Below, piece by piece: positions 20,036 through 22,961 of a stretch of DNA of 41,472 nt. Origin of the DNA: Allosalinactinospora lopnorensis (GTDB taxonomy: Bacteria; Actinomycetota; Actinomycetes; Streptosporangiales; Streptosporangiaceae); NCBI RefSeq assembly GCF_000981225.1, contig NZ_LAJC01000055.1:1-41472 (forward strand), given 5' to 3'. Position numbers and translations under genes: made by a program. Position 1 is the first letter of the stretch; the number at the start of each line of letters is the position of its first letter. Below the pieces are notes generated by a model. It had not been told where the DNA came from and did no database searches. It saw nothing but the letters and a program-made list of their open reading frames with translations.

Positions 20036-21319
20036 TTACCGATTACCGCCCGATGCTCCCTCGCGCGCCTGCCCCGGGAAGCACACGGTGACCACGAGGC
20101 CTCCCCCCGAGCGAGGCCAGGCGCTCACGTTTCCCCCGTGCGCGCGCACCACGGAACGCACGATGGACAGCCCCAGGCCCGCGCTCTTGCTGGAACGGAC
20201 CCGCTCCCCGGACCCGCGCCGGAACGGCTCGAACAGTCCCTCGACCTCATAGGCGGGGATGATCGCACCGGAGTTCTCCACCTGGACCGCGGGCTGCCCC
20301 TCGTAGAAGCCGGACCGCACGGTGATCTCGCCGTCGTCCACGTTGTACCGCAGTGCGTTCTCCACCAGGTTGGCCACCAGCCGTTCGAGTAGCACCGGGT
20401 CGCCGTTCACCGGCGCGCCGCGCAGGTCGGAGCGCAGCATCAGCCCGGCCTCCTCGATCTCCTGGGAGAGTTGGCTGAGCACCGTGTTGGAGACCTCGCC
20501 GATGTCGACGACGGTGCGCACGTCCAGCTCGCGCTCGCTCTTGGCGAGAAACAGCAGGCCGTCGATGAGGCGTTCGTGGCGGGAGTTGGTCTCCAGCAGG
20601 GTGCGCCCGACCGTTTTGAGGTCGGCGGAGGCATCGGGGTCGCTCAGGGCGACCTCCAGCAGCGTCCGGTTGATGGCGAGCGGGGTGCGCAGCTCGTGCG
20701 AGGCGTTGGCGACGAAGCGGCGCTGGCCGTCGAAGGCGCGGTCGAGACGCTCCAGCATGTCGTCGAAGGTGTCGGCGAGCTCCCGGATCTCGTCGTCGGG
20801 TCCGCTGAGCGCGATGCGCTCGTGCAGGGAGCGCTCCGAAAGCCGACGGGCGATCCGGGTGATCTTGTGCAGCGGCGACAACGCCCGGCCGGCCACCACG
20901 TAGCCGAGCGCCACGGCCAGCAGCCCCACGATGACCAGTGCCAGCACGGAGAAACGCGTCACCTGCGCCAGCACGTCCTCGATGAGGGAGCTCTTCACCG
21001 CCTCCACCAGATCGGGGTCGTCGGCGTAGGGAGAGCCCGGCTGCAGGGTGAAGGTCAGGTTGTCCAGGAGCGCGGCGACAATGACGTAGTTCAGCAGGAC
21101 CAGCAGCGAGCCGGCGGCGAAGAACAGCATGCCGTAGATCAGCGTCAGCCGGGCCCGCAGGCTGATGTTGTCGGTCAGCCGGTGCACACCGCGCGACACC
21201 GACCCCTCGGTGTTCCCCGGCTGGGAAGGCTGGGTGTTCAGCCGGCGCCACGTCCCCGTGTCGCCCGGCGGAGTCGCGGCGACCTCACCCGGCGGCCCGT
21301 CGTCGGCGCCGACACTCAA
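20036..21319 (-). CDS. cutS: CutS-type sensor histidine kinase
   Basis: 427 residues: a long cytosolic N-terminus, TM1 about 59-83, a short extracytoplasmic loop about 84-120, TM2 121-143, HAMP about 144-196, the phospho-acceptor box FVANASHELRTPLA (H208), N-box LVANLVENALRYN and G-box AGLGLSIV. The locus order (DUF4193, this pair, inositol phosphatase, ferrochelatase, sepH) matches Streptomyces CutRS. The start is TTG overlapping the regulator stop (TTGA); GTG four bases further in would change frame, and in-frame GTG at VSRGVHRL is possible. Odd: the extracytoplasmic loop has no Cys, whereas Streptomyces CutS is reported to sense through two conserved Cys there. Confidence 0.88.
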   Translation of the reverse strand: MSVGADDGPPGEVAATPPGDTGTWRRLNTQPSQPGNTEGSVSRGVHRLTDNISLRARLTLIYGMLFFAAGSLLVLLNYVIVAALLDNLTFTLQPGSPYADDPDLVEAVKSSLIEDVLAQVTRFSVLALVIVGLLAVALGYVVAGRALSPLHKITRIARRLSERSLHERIALSGPDDEIRELADTFDDMLERLDRAFDGQRRFVANASHELRTPLAINRTLLEVALSDPDASADLKTVGRTLLETNSRHERLIDGLLFLAKSERELDVRTVVDIGEVSNTVLSQLSQEIEEAGLMLRSDLRGAPVNGDPVLLERLVANLVENALRYNVDDGEITVRSGFYEGQPAVQVENSGAIIPAYEVEGLFEPFRRGSGERVRSSKSAGLGLSIVRSVVRAHGGNVSAWPRSGGGLVVTVCFPGQAREGASGGNR

Positions 21320-21969
21320 ATCCGGTACCCCGCGCCGGGAACGGTCTGGAGGACGGGGGGATCGCCGAGTTTCTTGCGCAGCGTCATGACGGTGACCCGC
21401 ACGACGTTGGTGAACGGGTCGGCGTTCTCGTCCCAGGCCTTCTCCAGCAGCCCTTCGGCGCTGACGACCGTTCCTTCGGCGCGCATGAGCACCTCGAGAA
21501 CGGCGAACTCCTTGGGCGTGAGCGCGAGCTCGCGGCCGTCCCGTTCCACGACGTGGTTGGCCGGATCGAGAGTGACCCCGCTGCGCCGGAGCACCGGAGG
21601 CAGCGGCGGGACCGCGCGGCGGCCCAGCGCACGCACACGCGCGATCAGCTCGGCGAAGGCGAAGGGTTTGGCCAGGTAGTCGTCGGCGCCGAGGGTGAGT
21701 CCCTCGACCCGGTCCTCAAGCTCCCCGGAGGCGGTGAGCATCAGGATCCGCCCGGTGTAGCTCCGGTCGACCAGGGACCGCGCGACGTCGTCGCCGTGGA
21801 CACCGGGAAGGTCGCGGTCGAGCACGATGACGTCGTAGTCGTTGACGTCCGTGTGTTCCATGGCGCTGTCCCCGTCGTAGACGACGTCCACCGCCATCGA
21901 TTCCCGGCGCAGTCCGACCGCCACCGCTTCGGCGAGGACCTGCTCGTCCTCCACCACAAGTACCCGCAC
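21316..21969 (-). CDS. cutR: CutR-type OmpR-family response regulator
   Basis: 217 residues: receiver domain with MRVLVVEDEQ acidic pair, phospho-acceptor D51 in VIVLDRDLPG, and LAKPFAFAEL carrying the conserved Lys; then an OmpR winged helix (LTPKEFAVLEVLMRAEG ... VVRVTVMTLRKKLGDPP). The start GTG follows GAAGGGC. It overlaps the kinase start by 3-4 bp. Upstream lie two copies of a hairpin plus 11-bp-phased direct repeats of the kind OmpR-family regulators bind, so autoregulation is likely. By synteny it corresponds to CutR, linked in Streptomyces to secretion and envelope redox stress. Confidence 0.9.
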   Translation of the reverse strand: MRVLVVEDEQVLAEAVAVGLRRESMAVDVVYDGDSAMEHTDVNDYDVIVLDRDLPGVHGDDVARSLVDRSYTGRILMLTASGELEDRVEGLTLGADDYLAKPFAFAELIARVRALGRRAVPPLPPVLRRSGVTLDPANHVVERDGRELALTPKEFAVLEVLMRAEGTVVSAEGLLEKAWDENADPFTNVVRVTVMTLRKKLGDPPVLQTVPGAGYRI

Positions 21970-21999
21970 TTTGCCCTTCGCTTCCGAGCGGCCGGGTAG

Positions 22000-22037
22000 G
22001 CCGCTGCCGGCGCATCCCCCAACACACCGGCAGCGGC
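22000..22037 (-). promoter_or_regulatory. cutR leader hairpin, copy 1
   Basis: A perfect 11-bp stem GCCGCTGCCGG / CCGGCAGCGGC enclosing a 16-nt loop that begins CGCATCCCCCAAC (plus strand) or, on the cutR transcript, contains GTTGGGGGATGCG. It ends 31 bp before the cutR start, so it would lie in the leader. The G-rich loop could mask or mimic a ribosome site. Confidence 0.55.
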
Positions 22038-22076
22038 GTCTATCCCCCGGCTATGCCGACTGTTATCGCACACCCC

Positions 22077-22093
22077 GAATAAGAACCGGGTAA
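22077..22093 (-). promoter_or_regulatory. OmpR-type direct-repeat box, copy 1
   Basis: On the cutR strand it reads TTACCCGGTTCTTATTC: half-sites TTACC and TTATT start 11 bp apart, the phasing used by OmpR/PhoB-family regulators. It lies 39 bp from hairpin copy 1. Confidence 0.45.
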
Positions 22094-22276
22094 ACCACCG
22101 CGCTCCTCCGTGGCGGCGGCCACGCGGGAGCGGCTCCGGGTTCACTCTCTCCACCGTCTCACGAGATCAACGTAGGGCGGTGGATCAGGTGCGGCAACTC
22201 CGAGTCGGTCTCCGGGAACCCTGGATCCCGGAGGTCCGGTCCTCGTAGGACCGGCCCGCCGGGCCCCTGAACGGGA

Positions 22277-22313
22277 GTCGCTGCCGGCGCATCCCCCAAC
22301 CGCCGGCAGCGAC
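22277..22313 (-). promoter_or_regulatory. cutR leader hairpin, copy 2
   Basis: An 11-bp stem GTCGCTGCCGG / CCGGCAGCGAC with a 15-nt loop starting with the same 13 bases as copy 1. Relative to copy 1, the second stem pair has changed from C-G to T-A on both arms, a compensatory change that preserves the structure. Confidence 0.55.
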
Positions 22314-22347
22314 CTTCACCCCGCACATTTCAAACGTGCCACATATG

Positions 22348-22364
22348 GGATAAGAAACAGGTAA
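22348..22364 (-). promoter_or_regulatory. OmpR-type direct-repeat box, copy 2
   Basis: On the cutR strand it reads TTACCTGTTTCTTATCC: half-sites TTACC and TTATC at 11-bp spacing, 34 bp from hairpin copy 2. It matches copy 1 at most positions. The remainder of 21970-22729 contains small GC hairpins (for example CCGGTCCT-CGT-AGGACCGG around 22235-22253) and no credible gene. Confidence 0.45.
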
Positions 22365-22729
22365 GTACTGGCATGAATCATCCGATGTGCTGTAGGCCAC
22401 CCGCGCCGGGCGCGCCATTCGCCCCCTCGCTGCGTCGCCCGCCGGACAGCTTGGCATGATGGACAACCGCGGCACATCCAGACCGGTCACAGATCGGTCA
22501 CGTTCCGCTGTCGAGGTTTCGCCGGGGGACGGTTGCGGGTAGGGCCAGCAATCGCCGGGACGGAACACGACAGGTGCGTCCATTGCGCCCCTGCCGGGCC
22601 CCCGCCCGACCGCTTCCGGCCCTCGCAAGACCCATGCCGACCGAGTGGGCGCCCGCACGCCTGGACCCACACGGCCCTGTCACAACGCTGTGACTCGATG
22701 TAGCGCAGACACGAAACAAGTGAGGTGAA

Positions 22730-22897
22730 ATGGGCGAGTTCGTCGCGGAGATCAAGGTCCGCATTTCAGAGACCTACAAGTCGCTCCAAGCAGCCCGGGC
22801 CGCCGGAGACGACTTCCTCGCCGACGCCCACGCGTCGGAACTCGAGGATTTGCACCGCATCGCCGCACGGAACGGTATCGACCCACACTGCGCGTAG
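22730..22897 (+). CDS. Small conserved-looking protein, 55 residues
   Basis: A short gene with ribosome site GTGAGGTGAA and ATG start. The product begins MGEFVAEIKVRISETYKSLQ and ends in ELEDLHRIAARNGIDPHCA. It is soluble, helical and evenly charged, with a coiled-coil-like heptad spacing in the middle. I recall similar small proteins next to the inositol-phosphatase gene in other actinobacteria, but no named function. A very strong hairpin follows immediately, so it is a monocistronic unit. Its promoter must lie in the 730-bp gap it shares with cutR. Confidence 0.75.
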   Translation: MGEFVAEIKVRISETYKSLQAARAAGDDFLADAHASELEDLHRIAARNGIDPHCA

Positions 22898-22914
22898 TTT
22901 GCGATCGTGAAGAT

Positions 22915-22956
22915 GCGACAGGGGCCGGCCGGATCACTCCGGCCGGCCCCTGTCGC
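22915..22956. terminator. 19-bp perfect-stem bidirectional terminator
   Basis: GCGACAGGGGCCGGCCGGA, loop TCAC, and the exact complement, located between the convergent stops of the 55-residue gene and the inositol-phosphatase gene. Confidence 0.85.
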
Positions 22957-22961
22957 GTCGG

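Follow-up and report, generated by a model that had tools for sequence, protein, structure and literature searches.

On the minus strand of the analysed window (the whole 41,472-nt stretch of DNA), a gene for a cutR-like OmpR-family response regulator (21316–21969; 217 aa, GTG start) has on its 3′ side a gene for a cutS-like sensor histidine kinase (20036–21319). The name CutR is given by similarity, and among the NCBIfam matches listed (25 of 91) none lies above its cut-off. Homologues in Streptomyces, Kitasatospora, and Actinomadura share 73–75% amino acid identity with the protein, as judged from the best 80 of 594 candidates, a set from which near relatives may be missing. The source genome is a draft of 220 contigs with an estimated completeness of 96%.

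Two hairpins with the loop GUUGGGGGAU lie upstream of cutR on the same strand. The proximal leader hairpin (22000–22037) has its 3′ end 30 nt before the cutR start codon and consists of a 38-mer that is almost invariant among relatives, while the distal leader hairpin (22277–22313) has a 13-bp stem and the loop GUUGGGGGAUG, and is delineated by the repeat, by its fold, and by covariation over 51 distinct sequences. An exact 22-mer occurs in both, at 22002–22023 and 22279–22300, which bears out the spacing of 277 bp from start to start given in an earlier note on this DNA. The stem pair described there as C-G in one copy and T-A in the other is likewise present (GCCGCTG...CAGCGGC against GTCGCTG...CAGCGAC), and the identical 13-mer reported at the loop, GTTGGGGGATGCG, is exact, although its final CG belongs to the stem and not to the loop. 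Folds of the sense strand lie far below those of shuffled sequences for both hairpins (z of −4.8 and −4.4).

Each hairpin is preceded by a direct-repeat box of the form YTTAY-N6-YTTAY, a pattern with only these two matches in the window and a mean of 0.00 over 100 dinucleotide shuffles. The distal box, CTTAC-N6-CTTAT (CTTACCTGTTTCTTAT, 22350–22365, minus strand), has an 11-bp phase and is proposed as a response-regulator site in the −35 position; the proximal box, TTTAC-N6-CTTAT (TTTACCCGGTTCTTAT, 22079–22094, minus strand), was identified by pattern match. Boxes do stand upstream of both hairpins as previously claimed, but the gaps measure 36 and 41 nt instead of 34–39. On the same strand, 11 nt 3′ of each box, lies a −10-like hexamer with a putative promoter role, CACGTT in the distal module (22333–22338; clade consensus CAGATT, in the context TGtCAgaTT) and GATAAC in the proximal one (22062–22067). 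The distal consensus, CTTActtgtTtCTTAT.ct.gaTgTGtCAgaTT.GAgAtGTGCGGGG, would place such a hexamer 11 nt past the box and a transcription start at the hairpin foot. The segment GUGCGGGG (22319–22326, minus strand), the proposed 5′ end of the distal RNA, is found in 67 of 67 distal copies, and the proximal 5′ leader segment AGCCGGGGGAUAGAC (22038–22052, minus strand) contains a GCCGGG that pairs with CCCGGC at 21991–21996 in the source genome.

PhoB/OmpR-type class II promoters carry direct repeats in an 11-bp phase with a −10 element about 11 nt downstream. The cutR module resembles them in both respects, its hexamers being only −10-like, and the tandem promoter layout with OmpR-type boxes proposed in the earlier note is supported, as two putative regulator boxes at an 11-bp phase that are conserved at fixed spacing. 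Where the cutR module departs from such promoters is in occurring twice and in carrying an RNA hairpin each time. A promoter scan of the region found none on either strand and is uninformative with respect to strand. Between the modules, a possible housekeeping promoter that the stricter promoter scan missed was recognised by eye (TTGCCG-N17-TACGTT, 22169–22197, minus strand), and the same inspection suggests one in some relatives too. The element GTGGCCTACAGCACAT (22385–22400), 19 nt upstream of the distal box and with the clade consensus gtg.c..a...cacat, is a possible second regulator site. Farther out, a divergent short ORF (22731–22898, plus strand; MGEFVAEIKVRISETYKSLQAARAAGDD...) has no Pfam or NCBIfam match and is followed on its 3′ side by a 22-nt inverted repeat (22912–22959).

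Within the draft genome, exact matches to the 17-mer hairpin core occur only at the two sites upstream of cutR, and of the 26 sites with the loop core TTGGGGGAT, only those two form a strong hairpin. A genome-wide repeat of the REP or MITE kind is ruled out by the two exact copies in this genome and the two covariance-model matches per genome (E ≤ 1e-5). The 26 sites compare with 7 for the reversed pattern (source genome, G000), the excess lying outside hairpins, and a similar excess occurs in several of 11 relatives, again mostly outside hairpins where it was read. Allowing one mismatch, the box pattern has three further places in the genome (L194–L196), none of them exact; one of these, L195, some 100 nt before a small ORF (MSGLGDAFNKVKRTAEKN...), is a possible further site.

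The covariance model, built on the distal hairpin and searched against 297 family genomes at E ≤ 1e-5, yielded exactly two matches in each of 69 genomes, belonging to 17 of 68 genera, whereas the remaining 228 had no match; like the other large covariance searches, it ran with stricter filters and may have lost weak matches. A sample of 394 genomes from the class contained 23 family members with two strong matches each and three genomes from other families with one marginal match each (2.7e-5 to 8.5e-5), the remainder having no match at E ≤ 1e-4. We also read 70 cutR upstream regions, gathered from a DNA search with cutR over the 297 family genomes (L122–L151) and 40 more loci, the source genome included. 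Both hairpins are present in 67 of them, and the three with neither (L190–L192, genera g52 and g64) come from more distant genera, so that the lack of conservation named earlier as grounds for abandoning the motif is the opposite of what was found. Both copies were read upstream of cutR in 67 of the 69 model-positive genomes; G078 has both hairpins there too, and in G056 both precede a cutR truncated at the contig end (residues 1–170). The 67 genomes form a nested sample, 38 of them coming from one genus. Distal hairpins with the loops GTCGGGGG and GTGGGGGG occur in L139 and L167, respectively.

A tree was built from 71 regulators, and a single branch supported at 99/94 separates the 31 that come with the hairpin (30 loci and G078, the latter on a long branch) from the rest. 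The hairpin clade is thus well supported in the CutR tree, with deeper forks partly open and 74–75% identity to the Streptomyces and Actinomadura homologues. By this distribution the hairpin is apparently confined to one clade, perhaps the Nocardiopsis/Thermobifida group. Weak matches to the model (L301–L310, L229, L231, and L232) were read individually, and are mostly G+C palindromes without the cutR loop, L303 with its loop GGTGGTGGGGAC being an exception. Two other weak matches are strong hairpins with G-run loops, L302 (G632:C12:13536–13574, minus strand; loop GGTCGGGGGAC) and L309 (G069:C1:837676–837717, minus strand; loop ACTCGGGGGAGT).

The distal stem has drifted in sequence and kept its pairing. 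Over 51 distinct sequences and 13 bp, 99.1% of the cells are paired, 8 of the 13 pairs have changed on both sides, and cells with a double change number 73, against 11.5 ± 6.3 in shuffles. This covariation bears out the earlier suggestion of a structured element on the cutR transcript. Read on the cutR-sense strand, the wobbles of the distal stem comprise 40 G-U against 4 A-C, with 3 other mismatches (871 cells, 67 genomes), or 14 G-U against 2 A-C when counted by genus-position combination. Folding energy points the same way, being lower for the sense strand than for the complement in 66 of 67 cases, in a strand test that partly overlaps the wobble count. Because G-U outnumbers A-C, the working RNA is read as the cutR-sense strand; such a bias is expected of a sense RNA and is predicted neither by a symmetric DNA site nor by an RNA from the plus strand. 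The RNA with C-rich loops on the plus strand, which had been offered as one possibility, is disfavoured by the same two observations. The compensatory changes that keep the stem, as looked for in structured cis-regulatory RNAs, are thus found here together with a strand asymmetry, and an RNA element is well supported by the alignment.

All 51 rows of the alignment share the loop core GGGGGAU, in agreement with the impression that the loop is more constant than expected. Of 67 genomes, 66 carry the same proximal 38-mer, L164 differing by a single change, and the frozen sequence of the proximal stem exceeds what structure alone explains. Both hairpins of the outgroup G078 have this same sequence, and the proximal sequence is on that account probably the older form. 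Below the main stem, GUGCGGGG could pair with CCCCGCGC (CCCGUUC, 22269–22275) as a lower stem; at least six pairs form in 63 of 67 genomes, and this extension is weakly supported, because shuffled flanks also form at least six pairs in 66% of cases.

No RNA family in Rfam release 15 reaches its gathering score anywhere in the window. For the actinobacterial 6C RNA (RF01066), there were no matches in the window at that score and one locus elsewhere in the genome. Like the cutR hairpin, 6C has a single-base run in a hairpin loop, but its loops are C-rich, stand in adjacent hairpins, and map to this separate locus. Six base pairs, worth about −12.5 kcal/mol, could form between the cutR loop and either loop of the source genome's 6C; pairing with 6C was rejected as the explanation, as it leaves the remaining conserved loop bases unaccounted for. 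CsrA-binding leaders present GGA in the loop of a leader hairpin, as the cutR hairpin does. A CsrA-regulated leader is not supported, CsrA being absent from all 18 genomes searched; of 14 control genomes, the same search detected it in 3. Among the titles and abstract openings of the literature covered, no cutR leader RNA is described.

The box has a wider distribution than the hairpin. Among the 67 hairpin-bearing genomes, 66 have a distal box that conforms strictly to the pattern, and all 67 have one once a single G is tolerated, with 67–69 nt from box start to loop GGGGGA throughout; a strict proximal box is found in 58, at 72–78 nt, and the proximal hairpin is kept in the nine genomes without a strict proximal box. 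Across homologues at ≥70% protein identity, among them Streptomyces, Kitasatospora, Actinomadura, Nonomuraea, and other relatives, 30 of 34 loci have a strict box in the 300 nt before cutR, the exceptions being L024, L032, L033, and L099; below 70% identity, 1 locus of 68 has it. These counts include related species and are not independent, but the contrast is large. When a somewhat looser pattern was run on mononucleotide shuffles, the rates were 0.10% and 0.06%. The box is also found upstream of cutR in the hairpin-free L190–L192. Since it precedes cutR in most close homologues, these hairpin-free loci included, the box is to all appearances an old cutR promoter feature held in common with Streptomyces, and the hairpin a later addition. 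The common box also supports, by sequence comparison, orthology with Streptomyces CutR.

Streptomyces and Kitasatospora cutR have the same YTTAY-N6-YTTAY box upstream, and the Streptomyces cutR loci scanned have no such hairpin. Streptomyces CutRS is reported to control the secretion stress response (PMC12802291, PMC10433416). According to the former, the S. venezuelae cutRS promoter was enriched in ChIP-seq, was not bound by purified CutR in SPR, and yielded no site (PMC12802291). The CutR motif reported there, TAWATAAA, differs from the box found here (PMC12802291). The reverse complement of TAWATAAA begins with TTTAT, which fits a YTTAY half-site and makes the box, by inference, a good candidate; we therefore refer to YTTAY-N6-YTTAY as a candidate CutR autoregulatory site at the cutRS promoter. 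The sensor kinases also differ between the groups. The CutS-like kinase of the window, like all 23 parsed rows of the hairpin clade, has no cysteine ahead of the HisKA motif, whereas Streptomyces CutS has two in 10 of 10 parsed rows; the counts leave out seven of the 30 rows from the clade and several from the outgroups. Parsed Nonomuraea rows likewise have none. Judging from these rows, the clade CutS could not sense by way of the cysteine pair that is conserved in Streptomyces.

Variants of the arrangement indicate how the leader may be organised. G078 has one box followed by two identical hairpins 104 bp apart, with no second strict box within the 1.2 kb read. Because of this single box, and because the genomes without a strict proximal box keep the proximal hairpin, one transcript with a two-hairpin leader would be a natural arrangement, and this counts against a distal RNA that is wholly separate. 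All six genomes read from genus g9 (L125, L127, L138, L142, L145, and L149) have a third hairpin between the two modules, with the loop UUGGGGGA (GTTGGGGGA[CT]), as would suit a loop-recognising partner that is counted or titrated. The loop is the shared and strictest feature of all these hairpins, and it calls for a partner in trans.

Several other readings of the locus were weighed against these observations. At least four T within 15 nt after the stem follow the proximal hairpin in 42 of 67 genomes, including all six of g9 and 30 of the 38 of g61, and the stems are very stable, as would suit a plain attenuator in which the proximal hairpin is an intrinsic terminator with partial read-through to cutR and the distal one a terminator or a 5′ cap against RNase. 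The T-run occurs in 7 of 16 genera and follows only 2 of 67 distal hairpins, and a constant loop is unneeded for termination. Since the run is absent after the proximal hairpin from 9 of the 16 genera, the source genome included, termination is not the common function, although attenuation is likely in some genera; as an account of the whole element, a plain attenuator is unlikely. A terminator scan of the region found none, and says little because it counts only loops of 3–8 nt. That the proximal 38-mer is conserved beyond the needs of an RNA stem, and that hairpin and box keep a fixed distance, could instead mean that the inverted repeats are DNA sites for a dimeric protein. The compensatory changes in the distal stem, the preponderance of G-U over A-C, and a palindrome centre more constant than the distal arms all count against such an operator, which we regard as quite improbable.

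A similarly low probability attaches to the idea that the distal module produces a separate small RNA, serving as a decoy for whatever factor recognises the proximal loop. This module does have its own box, −10-like hexamer, and hairpin with the same loop, and the six g9 genomes add a third hairpin of that kind; yet in G078, and in the nine genomes where the strict proximal box is missing, transcription from the distal module would probably have to continue into cutR, and a T-run after the distal hairpin is almost absent. On the opposite strand, a small RNA with C-rich loops akin to 6C or F6 is brought to mind by the best sub-threshold Rfam match, that of the F6 sRNA (RF01791) over the distal hairpin on the plus strand (26.1 bits against a gathering score of 46, E 0.014). 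The mycobacterial F6 has a long hairpin with a CCCCC loop that resembles the reverse complement of the distal hairpin, but it differs in its sub-gathering score, in lying on the wrong strand by the wobble test, and in its gene context (PMC8557902). Among seven further cutR loci, one has an F6 match (25.5 bits, E 0.81), the larger search raising E and hiding matches of lower bit score. In addition, 6C itself is a different locus in the source genome, and wobble bias and folding energy, which are overlapping tests, favour the minus strand. F6 on the plus strand was rejected on its weak score and the contradicting wobble bias, and a plus-strand RNA of either kinship is highly improbable.

The reading we prefer, with a probability of roughly 55%, is that the region holds a duplicated, autoregulated promoter-plus-leader module of cutRS, whose hairpins act after initiation via a putative trans factor that reads the loop. 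Each module would comprise an OmpR-type box at −35, a −10-like hexamer 11 nt on, and a G+C-rich hairpin with the constant loop where the transcript begins. CutR is the probable ligand of the boxes and would regulate its own operon. After initiation, the hairpins would act in cis on the cutRS message, where the putative trans factor, an RNA-binding protein or a C-rich RNA, would read the G-rich loop and thereby set how much leader RNA elongates or survives. In genera with a U-run after the proximal hairpin, that hairpin could double as an attenuator. A more elaborate version, which we offer as rather unlikely speculation, is a dedicated RNA feedback arm: phospho-CutR would fire both box promoters, and a clade-specific factor would count the loops (two, or three in g9), tuning or delaying cutRS, with the frozen proximal hairpin as the regulated leader and the distal ones as decoys or an avidity arm.

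One hairpin of the same type lies outside cutRS. At G069:C2:300870–300913 (plus strand; L230/L310), a long stem with the TTGGGGGAT loop core and a TTTTT soon after it lies in the leader of a short gene (MARTRNSLLGMGGQRKK...), which we take to be DUF6243-like. This hairpin is a possible second target of the loop factor.

The cutR element is a structured leader RNA of an unusual kind, duplicated together with its promoter and held at two copies. It represents a strongly covarying structured RNA with no match at gathering score in Rfam 15, present twice per genome in one actinobacterial clade. The box YTTAY-N6-YTTAY provides a concrete candidate CutR site at the cutRS promoter, which was left without one in the published work (PMC12802291). 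Box and hairpin represent two layers of control that are separable, and the retention of the hairpin pair throughout the clade points to an RNA control element of cutRS.
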